64,000 nucleotides of DNA from Saprospira sp. CCB-QB6 (lineage in GTDB: Bacteria; Bacteroidota; Bacteroidia; Chitinophagales; Saprospiraceae): positions 496,001 through 560,000 of the forward strand of contig NZ_CP116808.1 in assembly GCF_028464065.1 (NCBI RefSeq). Reading direction: 5' to 3'. The position numbers and the translations under genes were made by a program. The notes beneath the pieces are model-generated. The model made no database searches. It had not been told where the DNA came from and was given only the letters and a program-made list of their open reading frames with translations. This document shows, in pieces, positions 4,714-30,011 of the stretch (its first letter is position 1; each line of letters opens with the position of its first letter).

Positions 4714-5213
4714 AAATCGAAATCCGGGACTATTTAAAATTTTGTGTCTGCCCTTTCCTGCGCCTAGGGACAAGCCCCTAGGCGATGATGTCTGGAATAT
4801 CATTAACGATACTAAAAAGGTCATTCTTTAGCTCTTTGGATAAGTTCAGTTATCAATAACTTTAACAAAACCTTCACGAAAGCAAAAAAAGGGCTTCCGT
4901 CCGCTAGTCTGCAGCGGCCAGAAAGCTTGGGCTTTAGCCCAGAGACCTAAAAGAGCAAGTAAAAAGCTAGGTCGAGCTAGGAAAAAGTTAGCTCAATAGG
5001 CTAATTGATTAAGTTCCGTTACTTAATATTTTAACTAGTTCATAACAGAAGATAAATAGTTGGCCATAGCTTAGTCTGGGCTAAACCAATGATTTAGCGC
5101 TTGGAGTTGGGTATAAAAAAGGGGGGCTTGAGGCCTAAAAAACTAAGCAAAAAGGTAACAAAATACAGCTTTGTACGTAAAATAGTTACATCATCTTTAA
5201 AACGGCTAGACTT

Positions 5214-5531
5214 ATGAAATCGAACACAGCACTTCATCTCAACCTACATCATGCAATTTCCCAGCAATTACTTGTAGCCTTTAGATATAATGATCAGGAT
5301 GACTGGCGGGTCGTCGAGCCATTTTGTTTGGGTTTGACTAGGGCCAACAATTGGGGATTACGGGCTTTTCAGCGTTCAGGGCCGGTGGGTTCAAAAACCA
5401 GTTGGAAGTTATTTAATTTGGATAAGGCGCAGGACTTGCGGGTCTTGAGTCAGCAATTTTCGGCGGAGGTACGGGAGCAGTATCGGGTAGGAGACAAACA
5501 GATGCAAACTATTTTCCGTCAGTTATATTAG
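5214..5531 (+). CDS. Small WYL-domain-like protein
   Basis: A 105-residue protein that looks like an isolated WYL-type ligand-binding domain: LHHAISQQLLVAFRYN, then DDWRVVEPFCLGLT, WGLRAFQRSG, SWKLFNLDKA, and a C-terminal FSAEVREQYRVGDKQM. WYL domains normally sit behind an HTH domain in regulators and bind nucleic acid or nucleotides; no HTH is visible here, so DNA binding is not implied. The assignment rests on pattern recognition and is moderate. The gene stands alone behind about 490 bp of conserved non-coding DNA, and a hairpin terminator follows. A second, gutted copy lies near 29.5 kb, which suggests the gene travels with its flanks. Confidence 0.6.
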   Translation: MKSNTALHLNLHHAISQQLLVAFRYNDQDDWRVVEPFCLGLTRANNWGLRAFQRSGPVGSKTSWKLFNLDKAQDLRVLSQQFSAEVREQYRVGDKQMQTIFRQLY

Positions 5532-5556
5532 GATAAGCCTAGGTTTTGGGGCATAG

Positions 5557-5593
5557 AGAAAGGGACTAGCGAAAATTTCGCTAGTCCCTTTTT
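5557..5593 (+). terminator. Terminator of the WYL-like gene
   Basis: Near-perfect stem GGGACTAGCGAAA against TTTCGCTAGTCCC followed by T5. The inverted segment copy at 29455-29490 keeps the hairpin with one base pair swapped, so pairing survived sequence change. Confidence 0.85.
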
Positions 5594-5614
5594 GGTCCAA
5601 TGAGCAGTAAGTTT

Positions 5615-5776
5615 GGGGTGGCGGAGCCGCCTTGGCCGCAGGCCAAAATGGCCCAGCGCTGCGCAGCGGTGGCCGCAGGCCAGACCGAGCAGGCGGAGCC
5701 TGCGAAGGGCCGAGCGAATAGCGAGCTGCGGAGCATAGCGGCGGCCGCCCCAAATTGGAGGGCGGCCGCGGGCCCC
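5615..5776 (+). repeat. GC-rich modular intergenic element, copy 3 (forward)
   Basis: Starts with GGTGGCGGAGCCGCC and GGCCGCAGGCC hairpins, then GGCCCAGCGCTGCGCAGCGG, CAGACCGAG, a GCAGGCGGAGCCTGC hairpin, GGGCCGAGCGAATAGCGAG, and a long GCGGCCGCCC palindromic end finishing GGGCCCC. The end lies 6 bp from the stop codon of the minus-strand DUF5686 gene. The first 75 bp or so match copy 10 closely; beyond CAGACC the two diverge. Confidence 0.82.
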
Positions 5777-5782
5777 AAATCT

Positions 5783-8296
5783 TTAGAAATAGAAGCTTAG
5801 TGTAGCACGGACCGAGAATTTTTGGGCATCTTGGTTATCGAAATAGCTAAGGCGCCAGAGGGCATCAACTCGGATAACCTTAAAGATATTTTCGATTCCG
5901 GCGCCAATTTCCATATAAGGGCCGCGGTTGAAGCTGCCGTAATAGGGGCCGCCATTATCTTGGTGGTTGAGGGCGTTGGCGGCTTGATTTTCTTGGCTCA
6001 GGCTGCCCCAAACGCCGCGGAAGAAGGCCACCTCTCTCCATTTGAGTTTTCGGATGAGTGGAATTCTGTTGAGGAAAAAGCCGTCGAAATGTTGGACGGC
6101 GCGAACGCCCACCCAGATATCGCTCACAAACTCGAAGCTATTCATGAGGTTGTAGGATTCGGGATTGTAGAAATAGGCCTCATTACCGGGATGGCTTTCG
6201 AGCAGGAGGTAAGGCAGGCGGCCAAAGACTTTTCCGCCTTCGATTCGGTAAGAAAACCAGCCGATGGGACCGACATTAAACCAGTGGGAGATTTCGGCGC
6301 TAATGCGGTGATAATTGTATTTGCTGCCTAGCACCCCTTTGATTCCGGCCAGGTAGCTCAGTTCGATAATGGGAAATTCGGTACCGATAGAGAGGTCGCT
6401 AAAGTAGCTACGCAGGAGTTTTTCTTTGTAGGCGTAGCGAAACTTGAGGAGGATTTCGGTAGTGGTAATAGCCGTATCGATTTTTGTGTAGTCGTTGGCA
6501 TTGGGATAATAGCGGAAATTGAAGCCTCTATCGGAGCGGCTAAAAGCGGCTCCTTGGGGGATTAGATTTCGGTGGATAACGGCCAGGCGGTTGGAGAAGC
6601 CTTTTTTGTAGGTATGTTGATAATAGGCTTTAAACTCCTTAACGGCCAGCATTTTTGGGGGCACATTTCGGCGGAGGAAGCCTGCAAAAAGGCCTTGGCT
6701 AGGGGTTTGTTCGCTATTTCGGTTATCGAAAAGGACATCGTTAATATATTTTACGCCAACTTCTCTTCTTTTGAATCGGTTGAAGACATATTGGCCTTCT
6801 AGACGGTACTTCCAGCGTTTATCACCGAAGCCGTAGGCCCCGTAGCCATAGATGCGTAATCTTTTAGAGAATTTAGGGCCTGTTCCGACGCCAAAGCCTA
6901 GGCGGATTCCTTCGATATCGTTATAATTGAAGATAGAGCCATAGGGGCCGAGGTAGAGGGGGCCTTGTTCATAATAGCCTGTAGATATGGTAGATAATAG
7001 CTTGGTTGCGGTTTGGTAGATAGGGACCGTTTTGATGCTATCGACCATTTTGTAGACTGCTTTTTCGTTATCGGTCAGTTTTTCGTGTCGTTGTTCGGTC
7101 CAGAAAGAATCGGCTTTTTCGAGGGAGATGAAATCTATATCCTCAGGATCGACTTCTTTATAGGTTTCTACTACCGTCTCTTTGCCAATTTTAAAGTCCT
7201 TAAACATCAGGGTTTTTCGGCCGATCACCCCCATCATTTTTTCTCGTTTTTTGCTTAGGGCGAAGTCGATAACGGTTTTTTCTTTATAGGGGAGCCAGAT
7301 ACTATCTTGTTGTTTGTATTCGGCATAGATGAGCAGGCGGTTCACGAGGTTCACGTTTACGTCTTCGCTCATTCTCATATTGACGATTTCGAGCCCATAA
7401 TTTTCAACAGAGACCCAGAAGTCGCCATAGAAGGTATTTTCGCCACGGCGTTTGGGTTTAAACTTAAGTTTATAGGACCATTCGTCTTCGATGTGAGTAG
7501 AATCGATGATATAGTATTCGTAGAAAAAGAGGCCATTATTGGCGAAGGGGCTAATAAACTCTTTACCCAGTACGGTAATATAGTTATCGTAGAGGTCAAA
7601 TTCGTCATGCATTTGGCCGATAAAGTCGACAACGGTTGTATTTTCTACGCCGGATACTTTTTGGGCTTTGAGTAGTTCTTTTTTGCCCTTACCATTAACA
7701 TAGAAAATATCGTAGATACGTTCAGCTACATAAGCGGGCAAAAAGGGTTTAACATCAGAGGTAGAATCGATATTATCGAAGATAAATTGGAGGTCTTTAA
7801 ACAAAGGGCTATCCTTCATTTTTGGGTCAATATTATTGAGGTCCAATTCTGTTTTAGAGTAGCATTCTACTTGATAATTATCAAAGTTTTTGCGCTTATT
7901 GCGTTCTTTATTGGCTACAATACGGCGAACGACTTCATTCGCTGGATTTTCTCCGGCCAGAACGGTTACGGCTTCTAGCTCTACAGAGCTACTCTTTAGA
8001 CGAAAATTGATAATCAATTCTAGCTTTGTCGTATCAATTTTTTTTATCAGGTTATCGTAGCCCACGGAAGCGGCCATAATAGTATCGCTGGGTAAGCTAG
8101 AAAGCTCCATTTCTATTCGATACTTTCCTTCTACATCAGAGGTTACCCCTAGTGGGATATCACCTGGGATAAACACGCTACAAAAAGGGACCCCCTCTTC
8201 CGTGTCATCATCAATTACTTGTCCTGTTAGTACAATTTTTTGGGCTATCAAAAGGGGGGCCCAAGCTAAAAAAACAAGAAGGAGTAGATTACGCAT
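5783..8296 (-). CDS. DUF5686 outer-membrane protein with carboxypeptidase-regulatory-like domain
   Basis: An 837-residue exported protein. The signal peptide ends LLIAQ; residues about 20-100 form a carboxypeptidase-D regulatory-like beta-sandwich (VLTGQVIDDDTEEGVPFCSV, GVTSDVEGKYRIEM), and the rest matches the layout of the DUF5686 family, ending in a beta-barrel-like tail with terminal aromatic residue (RATLSFYF). DUF5686 proteins are Bacteroidota outer-membrane proteins of unknown function; there is no TonB plug. The gene is monocistronic and its 3' end abuts a GC-rich element. No specific substrate can be proposed. Confidence 0.85.
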   Translation of the reverse strand: MRNLLLLVFLAWAPLLIAQKIVLTGQVIDDDTEEGVPFCSVFIPGDIPLGVTSDVEGKYRIEMELSSLPSDTIMAASVGYDNLIKKIDTTKLELIINFRLKSSSVELEAVTVLAGENPANEVVRRIVANKERNKRKNFDNYQVECYSKTELDLNNIDPKMKDSPLFKDLQFIFDNIDSTSDVKPFLPAYVAERIYDIFYVNGKGKKELLKAQKVSGVENTTVVDFIGQMHDEFDLYDNYITVLGKEFISPFANNGLFFYEYYIIDSTHIEDEWSYKLKFKPKRRGENTFYGDFWVSVENYGLEIVNMRMSEDVNVNLVNRLLIYAEYKQQDSIWLPYKEKTVIDFALSKKREKMMGVIGRKTLMFKDFKIGKETVVETYKEVDPEDIDFISLEKADSFWTEQRHEKLTDNEKAVYKMVDSIKTVPIYQTATKLLSTISTGYYEQGPLYLGPYGSIFNYNDIEGIRLGFGVGTGPKFSKRLRIYGYGAYGFGDKRWKYRLEGQYVFNRFKRREVGVKYINDVLFDNRNSEQTPSQGLFAGFLRRNVPPKMLAVKEFKAYYQHTYKKGFSNRLAVIHRNLIPQGAAFSRSDRGFNFRYYPNANDYTKIDTAITTTEILLKFRYAYKEKLLRSYFSDLSIGTEFPIIELSYLAGIKGVLGSKYNYHRISAEISHWFNVGPIGWFSYRIEGGKVFGRLPYLLLESHPGNEAYFYNPESYNLMNSFEFVSDIWVGVRAVQHFDGFFLNRIPLIRKLKWREVAFFRGVWGSLSQENQAANALNHQDNGGPYYGSFNRGPYMEIGAGIENIFKVIRVDALWRLSYFDNQDAQKFSVRATLSFYF

Positions 8297-8543
8297 AAAA
8301 AAATCTTAGGGTTTAGTCAAAAACGACATTCTAATTTAGGGAAAAAACAAACATAGGCGCTAAGTTAAATGGACATAATCCATTTTTATGCAGCCCAAGC
8401 AGAGTTTTTTTCCGATGAGTCTGTAACAAAATAGTTAAATTCGGTTTTTAGGAAATAGTAAGCAGAAGGCAGCGGTAAATTCCCTATTCGGCCCTGTCTT
8501 TAAATTTTTCATTTTGTTTTTTATATGTTTAAATAACTATTCT

Positions 8544-9449
8544 ATGCGAAATCTCCTTATGTTTTGCCTTAGTATTTTATTCGTTCAACTGGCCTATGCT
8601 CAGCCTCAAAAACTACTAGATCAACTCAGCGGTAGAGAAGAAATTAGTTTTATGGGGCGCAGTACATTTTCTTTAAAAGAGAATTCTGGGGCTACATTAG
8701 TTCAAAATTTAGGGCTTAAGTTGCATGATGCTTTAGTCAAAAAAGAGCTAAAAAACGTTAGTTCTGCGGGCTTGCCTCATTCTCCAGATCCTGCGCAATG
8801 GATGGCGGCTTATCCGCAGCGGGATGATGAGGTTTATTCTTTTAACCCCATGACCCTAGAAGAGGAAAAGCATGAAGTCAAAACTGAAGTAAAACTCACA
8901 GATTTTAGCGATTTTGATATTGTGGCCTTGATTGCCTATAACAAAAAGACGCATCAATTTGAGTATTATCCCTATGCGATTCGTCCTGTTTTGGCGGCAG
9001 CAGAAGGAGTAGTTTACAGCCCTATTCAGATTGAGATTGCTCAAGGGGACATGGTTCAAAACCAAAAGCGCCGCATGAGTTTTTCTGGAAAAATTGATGG
9101 CAAAATCAAGCTTGAGCGATTCCAGCCATTATCTAATGCAAAAGAAGGCGAAGCAATGGGCTTGAGCCAGATACTAGAGGAGCAAATTGGGGCTTTAGAA
9201 GAGCTCCCAATCAAAGATCTCAAAGGGAAAGAATTGGCGCAAGAAGCTCGATTGCAGCTCCAAAAAGACATTACTGCAGCTGGAGGGGTGGTTATTTTTG
9301 ATCCGACCTCCATGGCAGAAAAATTGATGTATCAAATTGCGCCTCAATTTATCCTCGATTTTAGCCGTGGAGTTTTCCATACGAGCAATCTATCGGTACA
9401 AATACAACATATTGAAAAAGAAGAATTAGGCTATATTTTTCCTTTCTAA
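8544..9449 (+). CDS. Exported protein of unknown function
   Basis: A 301-residue protein with a signal peptide (MRNLLMFCLSILFVQLAYAQ). I start at the ATG at 8544 because it gives a clean signal peptide; the frame is open upstream to a TTG at 8514 that would add a poor leader. The mature part has a Pro-rich region with DEVYSFNPMTLEEE, a central block FDIVALIAYNKKTHQFEYYPYAIRPV, and helical stretches rich in Glu and Leu. I do not recognise the family; the central block faintly recalls GldN/PorN-like proteins but not enough to name it. It stands alone, divergent from the DUF5686 gene, and ends at a terminator. Confidence 0.75.
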   Translation: MRNLLMFCLSILFVQLAYAQPQKLLDQLSGREEISFMGRSTFSLKENSGATLVQNLGLKLHDALVKKELKNVSSAGLPHSPDPAQWMAAYPQRDDEVYSFNPMTLEEEKHEVKTEVKLTDFSDFDIVALIAYNKKTHQFEYYPYAIRPVLAAAEGVVYSPIQIEIAQGDMVQNQKRRMSFSGKIDGKIKLERFQPLSNAKEGEAMGLSQILEEQIGALEELPIKDLKGKELAQEARLQLQKDITAAGGVVIFDPTSMAEKLMYQIAPQFILDFSRGVFHTSNLSVQIQHIEKEELGYIFPF

Positions 9450-9470
9450 GGCTGGGTTAGCCGAACATTT

Positions 9471-9503
9471 AAGCGCCTCCAAGAATATTGGGGGCGCTTT
9501 TGT
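9471..9503 (+). terminator. Intrinsic terminator
   Basis: AAGCGCCTCCAA pairs with TTGGGGGCGCTT across a five-base loop, followed by TTTTGTTTT. Confidence 0.8.
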
Positions 9504-9570
9504 TTTGCCCTGAATAAAGTGTAACTTCAGGCCCAGAGAAAGTCTTTTTTTCGATTGAAAAACATATCTA

Positions 9571-10848
9571 ATGCAAGAGGTACAATTTGAAGATGCTTTG
9601 GACTATGCCAGAGCACAGGATGTTAGTGATCCCCTAGCGCATTTCCGTCCCCAGTTCCATTTTCCCAAGCAGGCTGATGGAACCCCTATCATTTATCTTT
9701 GCGGCAATTCTTTGGGTCTACAGCCCCGCCTTGCTCAAGAGCTGATGCAAGAAGAGATGAATGTTTGGAAAGAGTTGGCCGTAGAGGGGCATTTTAAAGC
9801 CAAGCGGCCTTGGATGACCTATCATGAAGAGTTTAGCCAGCAATTGGCGCCCATTGTAGGAGCTCTTCCTCAAGAGATCACAGTCATGAACACCCTAAGT
9901 GTCAATTTGCACCTGATGATGGTCTCTTTTTATCGGCCCACAAAAACGCGTTATAAGATTGTGATTGAGGGCGGCGCTTTTCCTTCAGACAAATATGCGG
10001 TAGATTCGCAATTGCGTTTTCATGGAATTGATCCTCAAGATGGATTGATTCAACTTCGTCCTCGTATGGGCGAGGATCATTTGCGGACCGAAGATATTTT
10101 ACAAACCTTAGAGCGGGAAAAAGACAGCATTGCTCTAGTTATGTTGAGTGGTATCAATTATTATACGGGCCAATGTTTTGATATGCAAGCCATTACTAAA
10201 AAGGGTCATGAAATTGGTGCTATGGTGGGCTTTGATTTGGCCCATGCCGCAGGTAATGTTAAGCTTCAGTTGCATGATTGGGGGATGGATTTTGCCGTTT
10301 GGTGCCATTACAAATACCTCAATTCTGGCCCTGGTTGTATTGCGGGCGCCTTTGTGCATGAGCGTCATCTTGGCCGCAAAGATATTCCTCGTTTTGAAGG
10401 CTGGTGGGGCCACCACAAAGAAAGCCGCTTTAAGATGCCGGCTACTTTTGAACCCGCCCCCAATGCCGATGCTTGGCAGATTAGTAATGCACCTATTTTG
10501 GCCATGGTGCCTATGCGCGCTTCTTTGGCCCTTTTCAATGAAGCGGGCATGGATCGTTTGCTGGCCAAAAGCAAAAAACTCACGGCTTATTTAGAGTTTT
10601 TGCTCAACCAATTACCCACCGATCGCATCCGTATTCTAACGCCCAAAGATCCTAAAGACCGGGGCGCACAACTCTCTATCCAAGTAAAGGGCGCTGACCG
10701 CAGTCTTTTTGATGATTTGGTTGAAAATGGAGTAATTGGTGACTGGAGAGAGCCCGATGTCATTCGCATTTCGCCGGCCCCCATCTACAACTCTTTTGAG
10801 GATGTTTATCAGATGGTCCAAATTCTAAAAAAATGCTTAAATATCTAA
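9571..10848 (+). CDS. kynU: Kynureninase
   Basis: A 425-residue PLP enzyme that cleaves kynurenine (and 3-hydroxykynurenine) to anthranilate (and 3-hydroxyanthranilate) plus alanine. The family is clear from IYLCGNSLGLQPR near the N-terminus, VGFDLAHAAGNV with the PLP-binding Asp, the Schiff-base lysine Lys248 in HYKYLNSGPG, and RFEGWWGHHKESRF. Length is normal for bacterial KynU. No other kynurenine or quinolinate genes are adjacent, so its role in tryptophan breakdown or NAD synthesis cannot be settled here. The ATG at 9571 fits family starts. Confidence 0.95.
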   Translation: MQEVQFEDALDYARAQDVSDPLAHFRPQFHFPKQADGTPIIYLCGNSLGLQPRLAQELMQEEMNVWKELAVEGHFKAKRPWMTYHEEFSQQLAPIVGALPQEITVMNTLSVNLHLMMVSFYRPTKTRYKIVIEGGAFPSDKYAVDSQLRFHGIDPQDGLIQLRPRMGEDHLRTEDILQTLEREKDSIALVMLSGINYYTGQCFDMQAITKKGHEIGAMVGFDLAHAAGNVKLQLHDWGMDFAVWCHYKYLNSGPGCIAGAFVHERHLGRKDIPRFEGWWGHHKESRFKMPATFEPAPNADAWQISNAPILAMVPMRASLALFNEAGMDRLLAKSKKLTAYLEFLLNQLPTDRIRILTPKDPKDRGAQLSIQVKGADRSLFDDLVENGVIGDWREPDVIRISPAPIYNSFEDVYQMVQILKKCLNI

Positions 10849-10877
10849 ACTAATTCTCTATTTAGGGGATTTAGTTT

Positions 10878-11005
10878 GGGGCCCGCGGCCGCCTTTTGTT
10901 CAAAAGGCGGCCGCCGCTATGCTCTGGGGCTCGCAGGGCTGCTCGGCCCTGCGGCGCCTACAGCGCCTTGGTCTGGCCTTCGGCCACCCCGCCGCAGCGC
11001 TGGGC
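10878..11005 (-). repeat. GC-rich modular intergenic element, copy 4 (reverse)
   Basis: Begins 30 bp after the kynU stop with GGGGCCCGCGGCCGCC, a long palindrome around TTTTGTTCAAAA, then GCTATGCTCTGGGGCTCGC, the GCTCGGCCC block, GGTCTGGCC and TGGGCC. It forms a head-to-head pair with copy 5, 116 bp away. Confidence 0.8.
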
Positions 11006-11121
11006 CTGCTCATCCCATGAGCAGGCCCTAAGTTATCGGCTTCGGCCCTTTAAACTTAATGCGTACTGGAGGACCAAAGGGCCGCAGCTGCGCGGGCAAA
11101 GCAACCTAATAAGGTGGAGCT

Positions 11122-11284
11122 GGCTGAGCGCTGCGGAGCGGGTGCGGCCTAGCCGCAGACCCAGCGGGCAAAGCCCGCGCAGGGCCGAGCAGCCCTGCGA
11201 GCCCCGAAGCATAGCGACCCGAGGGACAACAAGGCCTTTAGGCCGCAGTTTAACGACCGCAGGGAGTAACCGAGGGGCAGCCCC
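11122..11284 (+). repeat. GC-rich modular intergenic element, copy 5 (forward)
   Basis: GGCTGAGCGCTGCGG, a GCGGCCTAGCCGC hairpin, CAGACC, a GCGGGCAAAGCCCGC hairpin, GGGCCGAGCAGCCCTGCGAG and AGCATAGCGACCCGAG, then an extra module of about 48 nt (11225-11272: ACAACAAGGCC, TTTAGGCCGCAG, GGGAGTAACCG) before GAGGGGCAGCCCC. The extra module recurs only in copy 13. The 11006-11121 spacer contains two further short GC hairpins and no gene. Confidence 0.8.
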
Positions 11285-11476
11285 TAGATTAGATCATAAA
11301 TTTTATTATTTTGTGACAAGATCTAAATTTGTGTTTTACAGAAAAAAAAAGAACTTAATTATTAGTTAAGTCCGAAAATGCGTTTAAAAGCTGCCTTTTT
11401 CTACTAAAGAACGCTTATTTTTGGGGTTAACCATTTTTCCACAAAGCGGGGACACCTGCTTGAAATCTACTTTTGT

Positions 11477-14476
11477 ATGCAAAAACTATCGATTCAATTT
11501 TTTATGCTGTTTTGCCTCAGCTTTCTGTCTTTCTCGGCCTCGGCCCAGTTGATAGAAGATTTTGAGGGCAGCGTTCCTCCTACGGGTTGGGCTATTTTTG
11601 ATAACGGGATTGGGACAGCGCAGTCTTGGCAGGCCTCTACCTCCTCAAATACGGGGGCTCAGGCGGCCTATGTTCGTTTTGAGAGTGTTACGGGAGGAAA
11701 TGCTGTAGACTGGATGGTAACGCCTTTAGTTAATATTAGTGCTGGAGCGAGTAGCATGGTTTTTTACCAGCGTCAGCTTTTAAGTACTGATTATGGTACT
11801 GTTTATACCATTCGAGTATCAACTACCTCTCAGACGGACACGACTACTTTTACGACGATTGACACTCAGGTAGAGACTGATTTTGGGACGACTTATGCCC
11901 CTAAGACAGTAGATCTTAGTGCTTATGTGGGCCAATCTATTTATGTTGCTTTTGTAATGGAGCAAAATGATGGAGACAACTGGTACATTGATGATTTGAG
12001 CATTGGGGCTACTCCTTGTTTGGATGCCACAGCTTTGACGGCAAGTAATATTACCGCCACTTCTGCAGACATTAGTTGGTCTAGCAATAGTGGAGGGGGA
12101 CAGGCTGAAGTAGCCATTGTAGCTAGTGGGGCTCCTGCTCCTACCTCAGGGACAACAACTACAAATAACCCTTTTGCAGCTACGGGTTTGGCTGATGGAA
12201 CCACCTATGATGTTTATGTACGGGAAACTTGTTCTACGGGTGGTCAGACAAACTGGGTAGGTCCAGTTAGTTTCACTACACTTTGCCTTGGTGTTCAGGG
12301 AGATGTAGCTAGTGATGCGATTGTTATTAGCACGCCTAACTTCAATCAAGCTGGTCCAACAGATTCTTGTTATACCAACTCTATTGGATATAGTTCTGCT
12401 GACGTTTGGTTCCAGTATGTGATTCCTAGTTGTACAGACTCTTTATACATTGGTTTAGATAGTTCTGATTTTGACACTTATCTTCGTGTTTATGCTGCTG
12501 ATGCCTCAACTTCTTTGGCAACAAATGACGATGGTGGTGCAGGATCTACTTCTCGTTTAGCATTGAGCATTTTAAATAATGCTAACTTTAATTCTGGAGA
12601 TACCATTTATATTTTGGTAGAAGGTTTTTTATCTAGCACAGGGAACTATGTACTAGATGTACAAGCCACTACAAGTAGTTCTCCTGCCGGAGATTGGGCC
12701 AATACGGCTATTTCTATGAATACTCTTCCTTTTGCATTCAGCAACGCTACTATTTGTTACAGCAATAGTACTGGGCAAGCTGCTTCTGATGTTTGGTTGC
12801 AATATATTGTAGAAGACTGCCTAGACTCTATTGTCATCTCTTTAGCAGGTTCTGATTATGACTCTTATTTGGGCATCTATGCTGCGGATAGCACAACCCT
12901 ACTTTTTAGTGATGACAATAGTGCTGGGAACAGCAATGCTGCGCTTAGCATTCCTGTGGGCACTACTATTAGTGTTGGAGATACCATTTATATTTTGGTA
13001 GAAGGCGCTGGAACTGCCAGCGGAAACTTCCAGCTAGATGTACAGGCGGTATTTCCTCCTCTTGCTGGTAATACTATTCAAGAAGCCATTAGCATCAATG
13101 CATTTCCTTTTAGTAATTCTGGAGCAACGACAGGTTGTTTCCAAAATACTATTGGAAATAGCTCTGCCGATGTTTGGTTCCAGCATGTACTTGACAACTG
13201 TACAGATACGCTATTCATTAGCTTAGATAGCTCTGATTTTGATACATACCTCCGTGTTTATGCAGCTGACGGCACTACTCAGTTGGATTACAATGATGAT
13301 GGTGGACAAGGAACAACCTCTTACCTTCTTCTTGATATCATTAATGATCCTAGCTATAATGCAGGAGATACTATCTACATCTTAGTAGAAGGTTTTGGCT
13401 CTAACACAGGAAACTACGGCCTCAATGTTGATGCGGTACGTTGTGACCCTGCAGTTAGTGCAACAGTGGTAGTTAATGGCCTACAAAATACATATTGTAA
13501 TGCCAATAATATCCCTAGCTCACAAATGGTCATCTACAATGGCGGAAATAGTGATTTGGCCATGGTTCCTTATACCATGACACTAAGCACTCTGCCCTTT
13601 ACTATTCTTGTAGACACGGTCTACAACGTTCCTATGGATGATTCTGTAGTGGTTAACCTTCCTGCCTTCCCGGCTGCTTCTGGCAACGGAATCTTTGAGG
13701 TAAGCATTGAGGTGCCTGGCGATTACGACAGTACAGACAATGTATATACTCAAGTATTGGCGATTTCTAATACTGTATCTACTGTTTCAGCTGTAAATTT
13801 AGCTTGTAATGGAGATGCTAGTGGTACAGCTACTGCTTTAGGACTAGCTGGTATTGCACCTTATAGCTATGTTTGGGATGCCAATGCTGGCAGCCAAACT
13901 ACGGCTACAGCTACAGGCCTCAATGCAGGAACTTATAGTGTTACCATTACAGATAGCATTGGTTGTGGTACACAAAATAGCGTTCAAATTACTGAACCCA
14001 CTGTTTTGACAGTAAATGCAGTAGACAATAACGATGGTACGGCTACAGCTAATGCTGCTGGTGGTGTTGCTGTTTACAGCTACAATTGGTCTAATGGAGA
14101 AACCACAGCAAGCATCCAAGATACCGGCTTCCAAACCGTTATTGTTACTGATGCTAATGGTTGTCAAGCTAGCGATACAGTGACTATCATCGTTCTTAGC
14201 ATTCAAGGTATCCAAGGGCTTGATGAACTAAGCATCTTCCCTAACCCTGCTCAGGATTATGTAAACCTCAACTTTGAGTTGACCGAAAGCCGTCAGCTTC
14301 AACTACAACTGGTAGCCCTAAACGGCCAAGTGGTCTATACGCAAAGCCTAAATGCTGTGGGTCAACAAAACTTGCAGATCAATACACAGGATTTGGCTCC
14401 AGCCATGTATATGCTCCGCATCATTGATGAAGAGAGCCGCACACAACATACAGCGCCTATCGTTATCCAACGATAA
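11477..14476 (+). CDS. T9SS-secreted multidomain adhesin (anchor-J, Fn3, three PPC-like repeats, SprB repeat)
   Basis: A 999-residue secreted protein. After a 24-residue signal peptide comes a choice-of-anchor-J type jelly roll (LIEDFEGSVPPTGW to NWYIDDLSIG, about 25-178) and a fibronectin type III domain (about 180-268). Three related PPC-like repeats follow (about 275-660), each with SSADVWFQ-type start, DFDTYLRVYAADG and GDTIYILVEGxG. Next are a CARDB-like domain, one SprB repeat (CNGDASGTATALGLAGIAPY, SVTITDSIGC) and a type A T9SS sorting domain (LSIFPNPAQDYV to IVIQR). Such proteins cross the outer membrane through T9SS and serve adhesion or gliding; no enzyme domain is visible, so the role is inferred. 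A TACTTTTG box at 11468-11475 lies only 2 nt before the ATG, so the transcript start, the start codon or the box is misjudged. Confidence 0.9.
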   Translation: MQKLSIQFFMLFCLSFLSFSASAQLIEDFEGSVPPTGWAIFDNGIGTAQSWQASTSSNTGAQAAYVRFESVTGGNAVDWMVTPLVNISAGASSMVFYQRQLLSTDYGTVYTIRVSTTSQTDTTTFTTIDTQVETDFGTTYAPKTVDLSAYVGQSIYVAFVMEQNDGDNWYIDDLSIGATPCLDATALTASNITATSADISWSSNSGGGQAEVAIVASGAPAPTSGTTTTNNPFAATGLADGTTYDVYVRETCSTGGQTNWVGPVSFTTLCLGVQGDVASDAIVISTPNFNQAGPTDSCYTNSIGYSSADVWFQYVIPSCTDSLYIGLDSSDFDTYLRVYAADASTSLATNDDGGAGSTSRLALSILNNANFNSGDTIYILVEGFLSSTGNYVLDVQATTSSSPAGDWANTAISMNTLPFAFSNATICYSNSTGQAASDVWLQYIVEDCLDSIVISLAGSDYDSYLGIYAADSTTLLFSDDNSAGNSNAALSIPVGTTISVGDTIYILVEGAGTASGNFQLDVQAVFPPLAGNTIQEAISINAFPFSNSGATTGCFQNTIGNSSADVWFQHVLDNCTDTLFISLDSSDFDTYLRVYAADGTTQLDYNDDGGQGTTSYLLLDIINDPSYNAGDTIYILVEGFGSNTGNYGLNVDAVRCDPAVSATVVVNGLQNTYCNANNIPSSQMVIYNGGNSDLAMVPYTMTLSTLPFTILVDTVYNVPMDDSVVVNLPAFPAASGNGIFEVSIEVPGDYDSTDNVYTQVLAISNTVSTVSAVNLACNGDASGTATALGLAGIAPYSYVWDANAGSQTTATATGLNAGTYSVTITDSIGCGTQNSVQITEPTVLTVNAVDNNDGTATANAAGGVAVYSYNWSNGETTASIQDTGFQTVIVTDANGCQASDTVTIIVLSIQGIQGLDELSIFPNPAQDYVNLNFELTESRQLQLQLVALNGQVVYTQSLNAVGQQNLQINTQDLAPAMYMLRIIDEESRTQHTAPIVIQR

Positions 14477-22469: not shown

Positions 22470-22474
22470 ATAAG

Positions 22475-22623: not shown

Positions 22624-22668
22624 GAAGAGAACAGGCCCAAGGGCCTGCGAAAAGGGCGCGCTAGTTTA

Positions 22669-22745: not shown

Positions 22746-22790
22746 AAAAACAGCCACTTTTATGCGGTTCTACAGGCCCGAAGGGCCGCA

Positions 22791-22909
22791 GGCTGAGGGA
22801 TAGTAGGCAGTGGCCCAAAGGGCCAGACCAAGACAGCGAAGCTGGCGAAGGGCCGAGCGAGCAGCGAGCTGCCGCATAGCCCGACCCGAGCGAAGCGAGG
22901 GGCAGCCCC
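22791..22909 (+). repeat. GC-rich modular intergenic element, copy 9 (forward)
   Basis: GGCTGAGGGATAGTAGGCAG, a GGCCCAAAGGGCC hairpin, CAGACC, a CAGCGAAGCTG hairpin, GGGCCGAGCGAGCAGCGAG, CATAGCCCGACC, GAGCGAAGCGAG and GGGGCAGCCCC. The last C is shared with the TAG stop codon of the minus-strand lipoprotein gene. Confidence 0.82.
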
Positions 22910-23799: not shown

Positions 23800-23834
23800 C
23801 TATCTAGTTTTTTATTAAAAAATTTTGAGGGCCC

Positions 23835-25187
23835 CTACTCCTCAATTTCTAAAAGCTCAATTTGATAATCGGCTATCTTTTCGGCATTTTTTAAAGCCGT
23901 CTTGATTTGATAGGCCTTAATATAAGGATAGCGATTACTCAATGGCGAGTCCTCAGGCCCAATCAACAGCAGCTCCTGCTTATCTATAGGCTGGCCGTTC
24001 CCATCTAGATATACAATTTTTGCCTTTAGTTTTTTAATTGGCGAGTTAGCCGACTGCTTAAGGCGCAAACTCAAATGATGATAAACAGAGTTGGAAAATT
24101 GGTTATAGCTTAATTCACTAGCCATAGCCTCCGCCTTAAAAAAATACTTTTGGTTCAGCTTTTCGGGAAACAGCTTTAGCGATTTTGGAAGCATTGGGCT
24201 GAAGCGGTCCTTAATATTGACCAACTCTAGCTCCAACAAGAGCTCTGTTACAGGAGGCGGATCTCCATAAGACTGATGCCGCTCTTGAATGGCCACATAA
24301 TCGCCCATTTTGGCCCCTTTTGGAATATCAAAAGTTAATGGGCTGCTCCAGAGCTTCTCCCCATTTTGGTCCAAATAATGCACCCAAGCCACTACACTAC
24401 CACTGCCCGAACTCAGGAGTTTGAAATAGCCCTTTAGACGATAGGTAAACTCTTTTTCCTCTGCCCGATGGATCGTTTCTAGTTCGGCAGATAAGCCCAC
24501 AATCTCGCCATCTCCAGCAATCATGTTGCTTTTTTCCCAGCGGGCAGCAATAGATTCACTGGCTTTAACTACTTGAGGAGCTACTAATTCGGGAATTTGA
24601 TTGATTCGATCATGACTTTGGCCAGGCATAAGTACTAAACCCCCAACAGCTAGTAATGCCATCAGAATGACTAAAGCAATACCATTAGCCTTTTTATTTA
24701 TGGGCTTTGGTTGAGGAGCTTTGGCCAAATCAAAGTTAGGGGCCGCATTTTGGGCTCTAAAGGGGGCCCTTTCTTCTTCTTTTAACTGCACCAGCAGCTG
24801 CATAGCTCTTTGGTCCTCAGGATTGAGCTGTAATTGTCGCTGCGCCCAATCTTTGGCTGCTTTTTGGTCGGTCTTCTTTCCTTTTTCTTGGTAACAGAGC
24901 AAATATGCTTGGGCCATGAAGAGGGCCAGGTCTTCGCCCTGCGGCCGAATGAGTCGAGCCTGTTCTAGCTCTTGTAAGGCCTCCAGTCCGAGTTGGTGCT
25001 GAATATAGCCTTTGGTCCTACCGATAAAATCTTCGTAGGCGGCTTCTAGTTTGTCCCAATCCGTATAACTCAGACCTAAAGAGAGGGCCAATTCTTTGTA
25101 TTCCTCTTGGCTAAAGCTTTCTTCCTCAATGCGGTTTTGCATTTGCTTCAGTTGGCTGAGCAAAGATTTTATTTGGGGATCTTGCAT
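23835..25187 (-). CDS. TPR-like, single-TM protein with the same C-terminal double domain
   Basis: A 450-residue protein. Residues 1-145 are helical and TPR-like (ALQELEQARLIRPQGEDLAL, AQRQLQLNPEDQRAMQLLVQ), a single transmembrane helix lies at about 170-190 (IALVILMALLAVGGLVLM), and about 215-450 form the double beta domain shared with the lipoprotein downstream (HHLSLRLKQSANSPIKKLKA, YIKAYQIKT, ADYQIELLEIEE). The topology implies helical repeats in the cytoplasm and beta domains outside. It is the first gene of the pair and is divergent from the SulP gene. Confidence 0.8.
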   Translation of the reverse strand: MQDPQIKSLLSQLKQMQNRIEEESFSQEEYKELALSLGLSYTDWDKLEAAYEDFIGRTKGYIQHQLGLEALQELEQARLIRPQGEDLALFMAQAYLLCYQEKGKKTDQKAAKDWAQRQLQLNPEDQRAMQLLVQLKEEERAPFRAQNAAPNFDLAKAPQPKPINKKANGIALVILMALLAVGGLVLMPGQSHDRINQIPELVAPQVVKASESIAARWEKSNMIAGDGEIVGLSAELETIHRAEEKEFTYRLKGYFKLLSSGSGSVVAWVHYLDQNGEKLWSSPLTFDIPKGAKMGDYVAIQERHQSYGDPPPVTELLLELELVNIKDRFSPMLPKSLKLFPEKLNQKYFFKAEAMASELSYNQFSNSVYHHLSLRLKQSANSPIKKLKAKIVYLDGNGQPIDKQELLLIGPEDSPLSNRYPYIKAYQIKTALKNAEKIADYQIELLEIEE

Positions 25188-25332
25188 AAAAGTTGGAAAA
25201 ATCAGTAAACAATTTGGTCAAATCGTGATAGACGTCACCTTTTTTAAAAATTGGCTGCAGTACTTTTGTTAACAGACGGAACGCCTCAATATAATTCTTG
25301 ACCTCTTTTACAGCATTAAAGTACAAATTATT

Positions 25333-27060
25333 ATGAATATCAAGCAATTTATACCCGCCTTAGAGTGGCTCCCCAAATACTCCCAAAATGACCTAAAAGG
25401 CGATTTGTCCGCAGGTTTGACGGTGGGGGTTATGTTGATTCCTCAGGGGATGGCCTACTCTATGTTAGCTGGTTTGCCGCCTATTTATGGGCTTTATGCC
25501 TCTATTCTTCCTTTAATTATTTATGCTTTCTTTGGGACCTCTAGACAGCTGGCCGTTGGTCCAGTAGCTATGGTTTCTTTGTTGGTGGCTTCTGGTGTTG
25601 GGGCCATTACTCAAGATCCCGATGAATTTGTAAAATTGGCTATCATGATGGCCCTAATGGTGGGTATTTTCCAGTTCACCCTTGGGGTTTTGCGCATGGG
25701 TTTTCTGGTCAACTTTCTCTCTCATCCAGTGATTAGTGGCTTTACCTCTGCAGCGGCCCTCATTATTGGATTTTCGCAGCTCAAGCATTTGTTAGGAATT
25801 AACCTACAGCGCTCGCATCATGTGCATGATATTATTGGGCAAGCTATTGAGCGAGCAGGAGAAACCAATATAAGTACCTTGCTCATTGGTTTGGGGGGAA
25901 TTGCTATTATTCTGGCCCTCAAAAAGTTGAATAAAAAGGTGGGCATCAATATTCCTGGCCCTTTGGTAGCCGTTGTATTTGGTATTCTTAGTGTTTGGGG
26001 AATGGGCCTTGTTGATGCGGGAGTAAAAATTGTGGCCGAGGTGCCTAGTGGTTTGCCTACACCTCAAATTCCTACTTTTAGCCTAGAGAACTTCCAAAAA
26101 TTATTGCCTATTGCCTTGACCATTTCTTTGGTGGGTTTTATGGAGTCTATTGCCGTAGCCAAAGCCATTCAGGCAAAGCACAAAAACTATAAAGTGATTC
26201 CCAATCAAGAGCTTATTGGCCTAGGTTTAGCCAATATTGGTGGATCTTTCTTGCAGGCCTTTCCTACTACGGGGGGATTCTCTCGCACGGCAGTAAATGA
26301 CCAAGCGGGAGCCAAAACGGGCATGGCGGCTATTCTTTCGGCCTCACTCATTATTTTGACTCTGCTCTTCCTTACGCCTTTATTCTACTATTTGCCCAAA
26401 GCCATCTTGGCCTCGGTTATTATGGTGGCAGTATTTGGCTTAATTGATTATCGAGAAGCGATTCATCTTTGGAAAGCTGACCGCCGCGATTTCTGGATGC
26501 TTATCCTCACTTTTGCAGCTACCCTTTCGCTAGGGATTGAGCAAGGAATTGGTTTAGGGGTTGTCGTTTCGTTATTTAGCATTATTTACCAAACGACCCG
26601 CCCACATTTGGCCATTTTGGCCCGTATTCCAGGCAGTAAGCACTACCGTAATGTGAAGCGTTTTGATAAATTGGAAGAGCGCAGCGACCTGCTCATTCTC
26701 CGTTTTGATGCCCAATTATATTTTGCCAACACCACTTTCTTCCGAGAAAGCATTGAGCGCTTGGTAGAAGAAGCGGGAGCAGAACTCAAAGCCATCATCA
26801 TCAATGCAGAAAGTATCAATGCCATTGACTCTAGTGCCATGCATGCCTTAGAAGATGTAGCCAAAGAGATTCAGGCCAAAGGGACTCATTTCTTTGTGGC
26901 GGGGGCCAAGGGTCCCGTTCGAGATGCTCTTTACCGTGGGCATATTATTGAGCATATTGGTACCGAAAACTTCTTTATTGATGTTCAGGCCGCAGTAGAT
27001 GCCGCTGATGGCAAAGCAGGCCGAGAGCATGAAGAATATGTATTAGAAAATAGTTTGTAA
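25333..27060 (+). CDS. SulP/SLC26-family anion permease with STAS domain
   Basis: A 575-residue transporter. The N-terminal LKGDLSAGLTVGVMLIPQGMAYSMLAGLPPIYGLYAS is the SulP signature, followed by about 12-14 membrane segments and a cytoplasmic STAS domain (about 440-555) with INAESINAIDSSAMHALEDV containing the conserved Asp-Ser. Such proteins move sulfate, bicarbonate or other anions; no carbonic anhydrase fusion or sulfate-assimilation gene is nearby, so the substrate is open. The gene is monocistronic and ends at a strong terminator. Confidence 0.93.
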   Translation: MNIKQFIPALEWLPKYSQNDLKGDLSAGLTVGVMLIPQGMAYSMLAGLPPIYGLYASILPLIIYAFFGTSRQLAVGPVAMVSLLVASGVGAITQDPDEFVKLAIMMALMVGIFQFTLGVLRMGFLVNFLSHPVISGFTSAAALIIGFSQLKHLLGINLQRSHHVHDIIGQAIERAGETNISTLLIGLGGIAIILALKKLNKKVGINIPGPLVAVVFGILSVWGMGLVDAGVKIVAEVPSGLPTPQIPTFSLENFQKLLPIALTISLVGFMESIAVAKAIQAKHKNYKVIPNQELIGLGLANIGGSFLQAFPTTGGFSRTAVNDQAGAKTGMAAILSASLIILTLLFLTPLFYYLPKAILASVIMVAVFGLIDYREAIHLWKADRRDFWMLILTFAATLSLGIEQGIGLGVVVSLFSIIYQTTRPHLAILARIPGSKHYRNVKRFDKLEERSDLLILRFDAQLYFANTTFFRESIERLVEEAGAELKAIIINAESINAIDSSAMHALEDVAKEIQAKGTHFFVAGAKGPVRDALYRGHIIEHIGTENFFIDVQAAVDAADGKAGREHEEYVLENSL

Positions 27061-27106
27061 GCCTTTTGGGATTGGACGTATTCGTTCAGTAAGTTTAAGT
27101 TAGTCT

Positions 27107-27141
27107 GCGGCTAGTGGGATTTTCCCGCTAGCCGCTTTTTT
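27107..27141 (+). terminator. SulP gene terminator
   Basis: Thirteen-base perfect stem GCGGCTAGTGGGA against TCCCGCTAGCCGC, loop of three T, followed by TTTTTT. Confidence 0.92.
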
Positions 27142-27169
27142 GCGCCCTACAGGGGGCGAAGCCCCCACA

Positions 27170-27284
27170 GGCTGAGGGATAGTAGGCAGTGGCCGAAGGC
27201 CAGACCGAAGCGCGAAGCGCTGAAGGGCCGAGCGATCAGCGAGCTGCCGCATAGCCCGACCTGAGCGAAGCGAGGGGCAGCCCC
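27170..27284 (+). repeat. GC-rich modular intergenic element, copy 10a (forward)
   Basis: Preceded by CCTACAGGGGGCGAAGCCCCC, it reads GGCTGAGGGATAGTAGGCAG, GGCCGAAGGCC, CAGACC, an AGCGCGAAGCGCT hairpin, GGGCCGAGCGATCAGCGAG, CATAGCCCGACC, GAGCGAAGCGAG and GGGGCAGCCCC plus A run. It lies between the SulP and FISUMP genes. Confidence 0.82.
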
Positions 27285-27395
27285 AAATTAAAATCAAAAA
27301 GCAACTATTTAGAGTTAAAAAAAGTCTTTGGGATAGAAATGCAACAGGTTAAGTCCCTTTTTTTGGGAAAAACAACAGAAAACAAGCCTAATCCT

Positions 27396-29267
27396 ATGAA
27401 ACCATTTATCCCCCTTCTAGTCCCTTTTGTTCTTTTATTCTTTAGTCTAAGTTCTTGTAAAAAAGAGGCTAATGAAATTGATGGCGCCCCCCTTCAATTT
27501 CCAGAGACAAGCTACAGGCCCTTAGAATATGCCTGTATTTCCATAGCGGGGCAGTCTCTATCCAAAGATCAATATACAGCTGTTATTGACAATGAATATG
27601 CTGTAAACATATATAAAGTCGGTGATTTTTTGGTTTTTCAAATTCCAGAATTAGGGGAAGGCCAGCACCAGTGGCGAAGCTATCTCAATGGTATTGATTT
27701 TAAGGCTACTTATATTGAGGAGGGACCTATCCATATTTCGGATCACAGTAGATATTTGAATGAATATAAAGCTAGGTTGAGCAGCAAACTAGATGATCTA
27801 GAAAATTTACCCGCTAATATCGATAGTGTTTCCTTTCGTCAGGATATTCAACTATTGCGCACATATTTCCAACTAGCCGAACAAGCGCTAGTGAATGGAA
27901 GCCTAGCAGAGAAGGAAGAAGCCGCTAGGATGTTAATGGCCAATAGCTGGTGGATGGATGAAATCCATATTTCGCCCTATAATCTGAGTAATTATCAAGC
28001 GCCTAGTCTGCATGAAGACTATTTAGAGCAAGCTATTGAAAGCCAATTTAATTACTACAACTCCCGCAAAAATAGCATCCAAAAGCATTTTCCCAAACTA
28101 ATTGCTTGGGTAAAGGAAGGTTTGGCGGCCCCTGCTTCTAGTGGTCTAAATATTTCTGCTCAGTTTGCTTTAAGCAATGGGTATAGCGATTTTATGAGTT
28201 GTACTTGGCTACATAATGATTTCATGCAAACGGCCTTCATTCCTCATCAGCTTTATTTATCGGAAATAGACGCTAGCACAGGTCTTCCCCTTCCAATTAG
28301 TACAAGCGTACAAATGCAAAAAGCCCAAACAAAAACGTTCCAGCATAGCCTGAGTTATCGCAGTCCCTACCAACTGGACCAAGAAAGCGAGCTGCCCATC
28401 TGTCAAAGCTTAGAACAAGCTAGTAGTAACCTAACACAACTTTTTAGCATTTGGAACGACCTATTTCCGCAAAACTTTAATTGCCCCCCCTTGGCTCTAG
28501 AGCAGCAACAAAGCTTTCAGGAAAAAAGACGATTATTTGACAGCGAATACATCCGTACTGTTTTCCCTGGGAACCAAATTTCTAGCTACTTTATAGACCT
28601 AACTGATAGTAGCCTGCAACTAGCTATTTATGGGCACTTCAATAATACAGTGACCAATGAACAATTAGAGATACAATATCAATCACCTATTTTAGGCCAA
28701 GCGAGCAGTAGCATTTCTATTGAAATAGCCCCTCAATTAGAACAGTTTACCGATCCTCGAGATGGCGAAGTCTATGATGTTATTCAACTAAAAAACATGA
28801 CTTGGTTTGCCCAAAACCTTCGCTATAATGCAGCTGGCTCTAGCCTTCCCCCAAACAACTCTGGCCCAGAATATGGCCGTTTGTATGATTGGAATACCGC
28901 TATGACGGCCTGCCCCCCAGGCTGGCGCCTCCCCTCTGATCTAGAATGGACCGAACTAGAAAAAATACACAGCCCTCGCTTTCGCAGTCAATTAGACTGG
29001 CTGGGGCCAGGTTGGCGAAGCGATCATGCCCCTGCTATGCGTTCCCTTAGTTGGGCCCCCACGGCCCCCGCCAACGATTCCTACAACTTTAATGCTCTTC
29101 CCCTAAACACAAACGCAACTATTCTATATGCATCCTTCTGGAGCAGTAGCGATAACAACTCCTCAAAAGCATTTACCAGAAACATTAGCAGTAGCTTTTA
29201 CTATAGCGTTCAACGCGATGAAGTTGATAAATCTCTAGTGGCCTCTTGTCGCTGTCTCCAAGATTAA
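27396..29267 (+). CDS. Lipoprotein with C-terminal FISUMP domain
   Basis: A 623-residue lipoprotein (signal peptide with lipobox LSSC, Cys21). I start at the ATG at 27396; 19 further open codons upstream do not look like leader. The middle is a long helical and mixed region without recognisable domain. The last about 170 residues are a Fibrobacter-succinogenes-major-paralogous (FISUMP) domain: DGEVYDVIQLKNMTWFAQNL, YGRLYDWNTAMTACPPGWRL, WTELEK, SFWSSS and a final CRCL. FISUMP domains are common on Bacteroidota surface lipoproteins; their function is not established. Confidence 0.85.
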   Translation: MKPFIPLLVPFVLLFFSLSSCKKEANEIDGAPLQFPETSYRPLEYACISIAGQSLSKDQYTAVIDNEYAVNIYKVGDFLVFQIPELGEGQHQWRSYLNGIDFKATYIEEGPIHISDHSRYLNEYKARLSSKLDDLENLPANIDSVSFRQDIQLLRTYFQLAEQALVNGSLAEKEEAARMLMANSWWMDEIHISPYNLSNYQAPSLHEDYLEQAIESQFNYYNSRKNSIQKHFPKLIAWVKEGLAAPASSGLNISAQFALSNGYSDFMSCTWLHNDFMQTAFIPHQLYLSEIDASTGLPLPISTSVQMQKAQTKTFQHSLSYRSPYQLDQESELPICQSLEQASSNLTQLFSIWNDLFPQNFNCPPLALEQQQSFQEKRRLFDSEYIRTVFPGNQISSYFIDLTDSSLQLAIYGHFNNTVTNEQLEIQYQSPILGQASSSISIEIAPQLEQFTDPRDGEVYDVIQLKNMTWFAQNLRYNAAGSSLPPNNSGPEYGRLYDWNTAMTACPPGWRLPSDLEWTELEKIHSPRFRSQLDWLGPGWRSDHAPAMRSLSWAPTAPANDSYNFNALPLNTNATILYASFWSSSDNNSSKAFTRNISSSFYYSVQRDEVDKSLVASCRCLQD

Positions 29268-29278
29268 AAGATGACTTT

Positions 29279-29433
29279 GGGGCCTCCGCTGCGGCTTCGC
29301 CTTGCGGCGCTACGTTTCGGGGCTCGCTGTTCGCTCGGCCCTGCGCCGGCTCTGCCTCCTGGGTCTGGCCTGCGGCCACCGCTGCGCAGCGCTGGGCCAT
29401 TTTGGCCTGCGGCCAAGGCGGCTCCGCCACCCC
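29279..29433 (-). repeat. GC-rich modular intergenic element, copy 10 (reverse)
   Basis: GGGGCCTCCGCTGCGGCTTC, GCGCTACGTTTCGGGGCTCG, TGTTCGCTCGGCCC, a GGCTCTGCC-type hairpin, GGTCTGGCCTGCGGCC, GCGCAGCGCTGGGCC, GGCCTGCGGCC and GGCGGCTCCGCC. It begins 12 bp after the FISUMP stop. Its outer 75 bp or so match copy 3 because both belong to the duplicated segment. Confidence 0.83.
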
Positions 29434-29454
29434 AAACTTACTGCTCATTGGACC

Positions 29455-29490
29455 AAAAAGGGACAAGCGAAATTTCGCTTGTCCCTTTCT
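29455..29490 (-). terminator. Relict terminator of the deleted WYL-like copy
   Basis: GGGACAAGCGAAA pairs with TTTCGCTTGTCCC. Against the partner at 5557-5593 a T-A pair became A-T, so both arms changed together. Confidence 0.65.
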
Positions 29491-29509
29491 CTATGCCCCA
29501 AAACCTGGG

Positions 29510-29550
29510 CTTATCCAAATTAAGTAACTTCCAACTGGTTTTTGAACCCA
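29510..29550 (-). pseudogene. 41-bp remnant of the WYL-like gene
   Basis: The minus strand here matches 5387-5426 of the intact gene (codons for GSKTSWKLFNLDKA) with about one substitution. Upstream sequence including the start codon and downstream sequence including the stop are missing. The downstream deletion joins two GGATAAG copies that in the intact gene lie 111 bp apart (5420-5426 and 5531-5537). Confidence 0.75.
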
Positions 29551-29875
29551 GCGGGCCCAGCCCCCTTTTTTTTTGCCCCCAACTCCAAGCGCTAAATCAT
29601 TGGTTTAGCCCAGACTAAGCTATGGCTAACTACTTATCTTCTGTTATGAACTAGTTAAAGCATTAAGTAAAGGAACTTAATCAATTAGTCTACTGAGCTA
29701 ACTTTTTCCTAGCTCGACCTAGCTTTTCTCTTGCTCTTTTAGGTCTCTGGGCTAAAGGCTTTATGGCCGCTGTAGACTAGCGGACTGAAGCCCTTTTTGG
29801 CTTTCGTGAAGATTTTGTTAAAGTTATTGATAACTGAACTTATCCAAAGAACTAAAGAATGACCTTTTTAGCATC

Positions 29876-29938
29876 GTTAATGATGCTCCAGACATCGTTG
29901 ACTATAGTTCAGAAGTCGTTAATGACACTTCAAACATC
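29876..29938. repeat. Three tandem 21-nt units
   Basis: Units at 29876-29896, 29897-29917 and 29918-29938 share GTT(A/G)A(A/C)T at the start and CA/AA(A/G)TC-type ends and differ inside. The intact segment copy has a single unit (4787-4807). It is too short and too degenerate for CRISPR. Confidence 0.75.
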
Positions 29939-30011
29939 ATCGCCTAGGGAAGCCCCTAGGCGCAGAAAAGGGCAGACACAAAATTTCAAACAGTCCCGCT
30001 AGCAAGTAGAG

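Follow-up and report, generated by a model that had tools for sequence, protein, structure and literature searches.

Ectopic gene conversion between dispersed repeats, with pseudogene decay, is a known process, and tandem units are known from minisatellites, iterons, and plasmid centromere arrays. In DNA, lengths of 21 and 42 bp correspond to two and four helical turns. The Saprospira locus described here bears on both subjects. It harbors a duplication with a decayed gene, which is ordinary and recent, and, in its leader, 21-bp-phased elements, which are the unexpected part. Non-coding DNA in a recent copy can look as if selection had retained it; comparison with sister genomes and with the rest of the copied tract separates the two situations.

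The window, that is, the whole stretch of 64,000 nucleotides that was analysed, corresponds to G000:C1:496001-560000 and belongs to a Saprospira genome of 4.24 Mb (G000). By sequence comparison within the window, positions 4726-5681 match the reverse complement of about 29368-29997. The two copies are 24 kb apart, both are intergenic, and their orientations are opposite (Table 1). A sequence-only reading of this DNA had claimed an inverted duplication with its elements in the same order, and alignment bears this out, with 24 mismatches over 391 aligned bases in the leader (4725-5125), 2/38 in the gene remnant, and 3/79 in the 3' region and terminator. The GC-rich element, aligned up to 5743, has 12/133 mismatches. 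It is present in both copies, as had been proposed, with the refinement that the copied tract stops inside it. Indeed, the inner GC part of the second copy (29366-29480) is identical to the WYL locus at 113/115 positions, and the outer part (29262-29365) at 79/104. The latter compares with 80/104, 75/104, and 77/104 for the repeats found at the place of the second copy (locus 2) in the sister genomes G001, G002, and G003, respectively. Ancestry thus changes inside a shared repeat, and the copied tract seems to end there, near 5681. Because the identity of the outer part to the WYL locus (79/104) is nearly that to locus 2 of G001 (80/104), the breakpoint is marked only by a sharp drop in identity. 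The opposite edge of the tract is, in both copies, the outer end of an IS256-type TIR. GC-rich dispersed repeats with mirrored arms are also seen in many other intergenic stretches across the window.

Table 1. Features of the two copies, in window coordinates.
Feature	Position	Strand	Basis
IS256-type TIR with CGCCTAGGG..CCCTAGGCG palindrome, forming one terminus of a dispersed MITE family; partner end absent here	4726..4784	+	
Flank of GATG-type 21-bp array; array remnant only at about 4784-4810	4798..4895	+	R1 match G000:500798-500893, E 1.0e-20; alignment A1
Last units of decayed CTAG-type array and flank (R1 match 4966-5058)	4955..5058	+	Sequence comparison
Spacer, 49-52/86 identical to sister genomes	5041..5126	+	Sequence comparison
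Promoter-proximal block; 5129-5213 lost in copy 2	5127..5213	+	Sister-genome conservation
Gene for stand-alone WYL-domain protein, 105 aa	5214..5531	+	Pfam WYL, structure model, fold search
Hairpin and T-run 3' of the gene, a terminator by eye; absent from the pattern-scan list	5559..5593	+	
Dispersed GC-rich repeat; copied tract seems to end inside, near 5681	5611..5743	+	Sequence comparison
Chimeric GC-rich repeat of locus 2; identity to WYL locus 113/115 in the inner and 79/104 in the outer part (outer part 80/104 to the G001 locus-2 repeat)	29262..29480	-	
Gene remnant, 42 bp plus GGATAAG	29510..29558	-	Copy alignment
Copy of WYL-locus flank	29631..29723	-	R1 match G000:525631-525723
Copy of GATG-type flank, then array fragment slightly longer than that of copy 1	29788..29886	-	R1 match G000:525788-525886
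IS256-type TIR, outer edge of copied tract	29976..29997	-	

The second copy has lost 361 bp through two deletions. The first removed 250 bp (5129-5378) without clear microhomology, and the second removed 111 bp lying exactly between the GGATAAG at 5420 and the GGATAAG at 5531. Together, they took away the 85 bp preceding the start codon (5129-5213) and most of the gene. The remnant is made up of 5379-5419 (41 bp; 29517-29558 in copy 2) plus one GGATAAG, in agreement with the earlier estimate of about 41 bp. That estimate had been accompanied by the statement that a non-coding half of about 490 bp remains, which holds for 4725-5128 and fails for 5129-5213. What is left of the leader in copy 2 is its repeat-derived part and a spacer.

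The origin of the second copy was addressed with three sister genomes, G001 (S. grandis Lewin, NC_016940.1), G002, and G003 (DSM 2844, NZ_JH719942.1). The WYL gene is at the WYL locus in all four genomes, and a protein search found the remnant in G000 only, the search being near its limit there (E 2.5e-4 for the G000 remnant itself). The locus-2 stretches of the three sisters give no blastn match to 29400-29816 and have 0, 0, and 1 14-mers in common with 5378-5605. They do carry related repeats: a GC-rich repeat in 3/3 and a flank with a 42-bp array in 2/3 (G001 and G002, not G003). At the WYL locus of the sisters, a TIR-like end, a CTAG-type array, and a flank precede the gene. The genes around both places are collinear in the sisters, which argues against an inversion. 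Since the duplicate is absent from the three sisters, since related repeats occupy both places there, and since the tract stops in a shared GC-rich repeat, repeat-mediated copying is the best explanation, and we give copying followed by decay a probability of roughly 0.75.

In this mechanism, both places would have carried the same dispersed repeats, namely an IS256-type end, a 21-bp-phased array with its flank, and a GC-rich element. The composite leader would have reached the WYL locus first, before DNA of that locus was copied to locus 2, an order of steps that we infer. In the G000 lineage, the stretch running from the IS256-type end through the leader, the WYL gene, and the terminator into the GC-rich element would then have been copied, inverted, to locus 2. 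The route was most likely ectopic gene conversion anchored on the repeats, which we favor over another copying route. The extra gene would later have been broken by the two deletions, one of them between 7-bp direct repeats, with loss of the promoter-proximal block and of most of the coding sequence. The flank now at locus 2 of G000 differs in type from those that the sisters have there (67/90 and 68/90 identical), and hence the state of the recipient before copying is one that we infer. The outer GC part, which resembles locus 2 no more closely than it does the WYL locus, also calls for some caution toward repeat-mediated copying.

In G000, the leader is a composite of a TIR, a GATG-type array fragment with its flank, a short module, and a CTAG-type array fragment with its flank. 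It is thus a mosaic of one IS256-type end and two decayed elements of flank plus array. In the sister genomes, 42-bp arrays stand at the position of the G000 CTAG-type array. Positions 4955-5040 are identical to the three sisters at 67-72/86, and the block 5127-5213 at 68-70/87. Between species, the spacer at 5041-5126 is no more conserved than four-fold sites. The leader has 43 matches in its own genome, most of them within its first 65 bases, and its inner part recurs without the WYL gene at a third place of G000 (2353585-2353801, 85%). A search of the genome for further copies, with or without the gene, had been suggested, and parts of the non-coding half do recur elsewhere without it. The hint that this half is independent of the gene was therefore correct; what it indicates is a repeat element of Saprospira rather than an RNA retained in copy 2. 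Elsewhere in the window, other repeats are found. A gene-poor stretch at 54870-55780 carries two 229-bp direct repeats (91%) and is rich in short perfect palindromes such as CTGTAGGTTAAAACCTACAG, which form another dispersed repeat class, and three 79-bp repeats that are 73-75% identical lie at 12588-13434, inside a 999-aa frame (11477-14476).

The flank belongs to a family present throughout the four genomes. A model of sequence only, built from 21 flank sequences and with many of its matches being its own seeds, gave 62 matches at E<=0.01 (8 in G000, 21 in G001, 19 in G002, and 14 in G003). At the same threshold, none was found in genomes G004 and G005, and a search of 298 family genomes with stricter filters added one weak match beyond G000-G003 (G241, E 2.8e-4). 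Forty-nine of the 62 flanks were examined (8/8, 16/21, 16/19, and 9/14 in G000 to G003), the other 13 being the weak tail and G001:544459, a duplicate beside an IS. A tandem array adjoins 38 of the 49, with a best lag of 42 at 28 flanks, 21 at seven, 84 at two, and 63 at one. By genome, adjoining arrays occur at 1/8 flanks in G000, 15/16 in G001, 14/16 in G002, and 8/9 in G003. As a control, 490 random stretches of equal length were drawn from three Saprospira genomes; an array signal appeared in 14 of them, with lags of 21 or 41-44 in eight cases and 83 in one. A TIR motif lies within 700 bp on the array side of 32/49 flanks vs. 13/490 random stretches, and a GC core within 200 bp on the non-array side of 31/49 vs. 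35/490.

At three places, the orthologous flanks of the pair G000-G001 agree at 239/269 positions (89%; 69/80, 89/99, and 81/90), vs. 313/483 (65%) for the four-fold sites of three neighbouring genes, a conservation that is overstated to the extent that decayed flanks escape a model built on flanks, the flank count being open to the same ascertainment bias. Locus 2 (67/90) was left out of this sum, its flank having been replaced by the copied tract; with locus 2 included, the sum is 306/359, still above the four-fold sites. The flank at G000:1503742 is just 57-58/76 identical to its counterparts in G002 and G003.

As a member of a genus-wide family, the flank of the leader is a candidate DNA site, and it may be a maintained one. 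Tentatively, flank and array together could form such a maintained site, for instance a phased binding array, with the leader copies kept or spread for that purpose. This possibility agrees with the adjoining of arrays at 38/49 flanks, all at a lag of 21, 42, 63, or 84, with the identity of orthologous flanks beyond that of four-fold sites (239/269 vs. 313/483), and with the excess of TIR motifs (32/49 vs. 13/490) and GC cores (31/49 vs. 35/490). However, G000 keeps an array at 1/8 flanks, and dyad symmetry is not general in the units (3/30 at p<0.05). The model misses decayed flanks, and identity falls to 67/90 at locus 2 and 57-58/76 at G000:1503742. Conversion between copies could also keep flanks alike, although the flank of the WYL locus carries its own variant in each of the four genomes, and a protein binding the flank or the array is not known.

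Arrays of these periods are not restricted to the flanks. In an even sample of 400 kb per genome, periods of 21-22, 41-44, 83, or 123-126 are found in 9/13 arrays of G001, 8/11 of G000, and 11/20 of G002, five of whose 20 rows belong to a single locus, a CRISPR by eye. Among arrays with less than half of their length inside ORFs of at least 100 codons, these periods are found in 4/4, 7/8, and 6/14, respectively. The controls gave 0/1 array in 400 kb of G066 and 0/5 in 320,841 bases taken from the contig starts of 20 family members, where one of the five has a period of 23. A second listing consists of overlapping loci chosen around repeats, the 400-kb set being the even sample. The arrays at L087 2879-3336, L089 3187-3643, L103 1249-1744, L244 3871-4377, and others have periods of 21, 41-44, or 83 bp. 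Their units are mutually unrelated, in up to about 24 copies, and some form higher-order units of 84 or 126 bp. The CRISPR array recognized by eye (L245 181-4480, in G002) has a repeat of about 36 bp. For the arrays themselves, a CRISPR identity was rejected, their units being without spacers, and so was a palindromic nature of the units (3/30 families at p<0.05).

Several 42-bp arrays lie inside long ORFs and at least two of them resemble acidic protein repeats, so that the set is not purely non-coding. Flank-borne arrays all have periods that are multiples of 21; other arrays have periods of 41, 43, 44, and 83, which do not fit codons. Between units, a coding test of 16 arrays in six frames gave no consistent synonymous excess, with low power (2-19 changes per array). 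Heptad-like frames can be seen by eye, and GATG-type arrays are open in one frame, but a coding nature was rejected, given the lack of consistent synonymous excess and the periods of other arrays that are not divisible by 3. A bolder and doubtful idea is that Saprospira possesses intergenic satellite-like arrays, whose units differ but keep a spacing of two or four helical turns, with a conserved flank of about 65-100 bp at many of them, and which would be read by a putative DNA-binding protein. If true, this would be a bacterial counterpart of a satellite or centromere array, and the two leaders of the window would be decaying examples. The literature search found nothing on such arrays, although the papers describing the Lewin and Sa g1 genomes may mention them. 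PMC10508125 does not mention repeats, and passages from PMC4060949 name Saprospira 0 times.

The TIR leads to another route for the duplication itself, in which an IS256-type transposase moved the whole unit by means of a single TIR and, at the opposite end, a substitute for it. Both copies of the tract begin precisely with the TIR, an edge that fits transposition equally well. The window holds two TIR matches with up to 3 mismatches, one per copy at the outer end, vs. a chance mean of 0.03 over 100 shuffles. The TIR family occupies about 30 or more places in G000. In G001, a Transposase_mut gene is bounded on both sides by this TIR, and such a gene (E 3e-105) lies at locus 2 itself. Yet a window scan with up to 3 mismatches found no second TIR at either place, the other end of the tract lies inside the GC-rich repeat at a sharp drop in identity, and G000 now has no Transposase_mut match. 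Transposition of the unit is thus improbable. With respect to MITEs, the TIR of the window places matches a transposase-bearing relative, but these places do not have TIRs at both ends. At locus 2 of G001, an IS256-like element with a Transposase_mut frame (L088 3540-4890) has, by eye, about 75 bp of neighbouring sequence on both sides, far beyond the usual target-site duplication.

Repeat-mediated copying leaves the question of what is maintained at the WYL locus. The label "WYL-like" given to the gene product was well chosen. Of seven aligned members, five match Pfam WYL at E<=1, the best at 4.1e-5, the window protein itself scoring 18.8 bits against PF13280, below the cut-off of 21.8; the PADLOC WYL model gives E 1.8e-6. 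The AlphaFold model has a pLDDT of 75.5, and the first 20 PDB matches of a fold search are chains of the WYL regulators PafBC, DriD, BrxR, and CapW, 3 of the 20 at E<=0.001. Predicted model and fold search thus indicate a WYL fold; in contrast, searching the sequences of solved structures with the WYL alignment gave two chance-level matches only. A type III toxin-antitoxin system, in which a toxin gene follows a repeat RNA, was also considered; the gene beside the array at the WYL locus encodes a WYL domain. Among the four genomes, the protein shows 0 amino-acid differences, while 16-18 of the 41 four-fold sites of its gene (39-44%) differ between G000 and each of the other three. Judging from these sequences, what is maintained is the WYL protein, which contradicts the proposal that the non-coding half, "not the protein", is kept. 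A paralogue, 86-90% identical, exists elsewhere in G000-G003, and a protein search found neither gene nor paralogue in G004 and G005. Among 100 family genomes searched, five matched: G000, G001, two genomes of other genera (48-54% identity), and one with a weak partial match. The G000 paralogue (G000:C1:2484533-2484847; L032, L094) is 90% identical; a block like that of the WYL gene precedes its start codon, and the 400 bp upstream showed no flank with array. By eye, the core of 5127-5213 resembles the region before the paralogue; its one sigma-70-like match (5155-5183) is not above chance.

Divergence between the two copies shows no difference along the tract. That of the leader is not lower than that of the gene remnant and 3' region (Fisher p=0.65) or of the GC part (Fisher p=0.32), comparisons with little power (38 gene bases). 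Compared with the 3' side up to 5686, the leader is, if anything, more diverged (24/391 vs. 4/157, Fisher p=0.09), and, within it, flank pieces do not differ from the rest (11/190 vs. 13/201, p=0.84). The non-coding half of this duplicate is thus no better conserved than expected, an outcome named beforehand as one that would refute its maintenance, and the selective persistence claimed for it finds no support, the p=0.09 trend running in the opposite direction. Rfam gave no match in the window at gathering score, and the best hit of a loose search (E 0.065) lies in the terminator. Folding of the flank-family alignment predicted 0 pairs, and folding of the WYL leader in four genomes gave two-sided changes in 2/59 predicted pairs. 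A structured RNA leader was rejected, with no Rfam family at gathering score and no covarying structure. Hence, of the "RNA or site" previously envisaged, the RNA fails, and the site survives in another sense, that of the flank conserved between species (239/269 vs. 313/483 four-fold sites). Retention of the non-coding half of copy 2 by selection for an RNA or leader function, despite loss of the gene, is very unlikely. In its favor are the survival of about 400 of the 489 leader bases vs. about 42 gene bases, a leader fold slightly better than that of shuffles (z-score -1.8; 5/100 shuffles as good), and the conservation of the flank between species, but leader divergence is not below that of the rest of the tract, Rfam and covariation are negative, and the likeliest regulatory stretch, 5129-5213, is the deleted part. 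The non-coding part would rather have been left because the deletions missed it, in a loss without selection.

The by-product may matter more than the duplication, as it reveals a genus with arrays at about 21 bp or its multiples across unrelated units, many beside a conserved flank. With these arrays, the idea that helical spacing is constrained in bacterial DNA can be put to the test. When compared with known systems, the WYL protein shares, by model and fold search, its domain fold with the regulators PafBC, DriD, BrxR, and CapW; unlike them, it has 105 aa and the WYL domain alone, a DNA-binding domain not being seen in the model. The TIR is of the type that surrounds the G001 Transposase_mut gene, as in IS256-family insertion sequences and MITEs, but each window place has one TIR, with no second end. 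Minisatellites, iterons, and plasmid centromere arrays likewise have tandem units of about 21 or 42 bp. In contrast to them, the Saprospira arrays occur at many chromosomal places, with unrelated units of the same period and a conserved flank at one end, a binding protein not being known. Finally, ectopic gene conversion between dispersed repeats with pseudogene decay has in common with this locus an ancestry change inside a common repeat and a recent, decaying extra copy; unlike the usual cases, the TIR edge is unusually sharp here and the copy is inverted over 24 kb.
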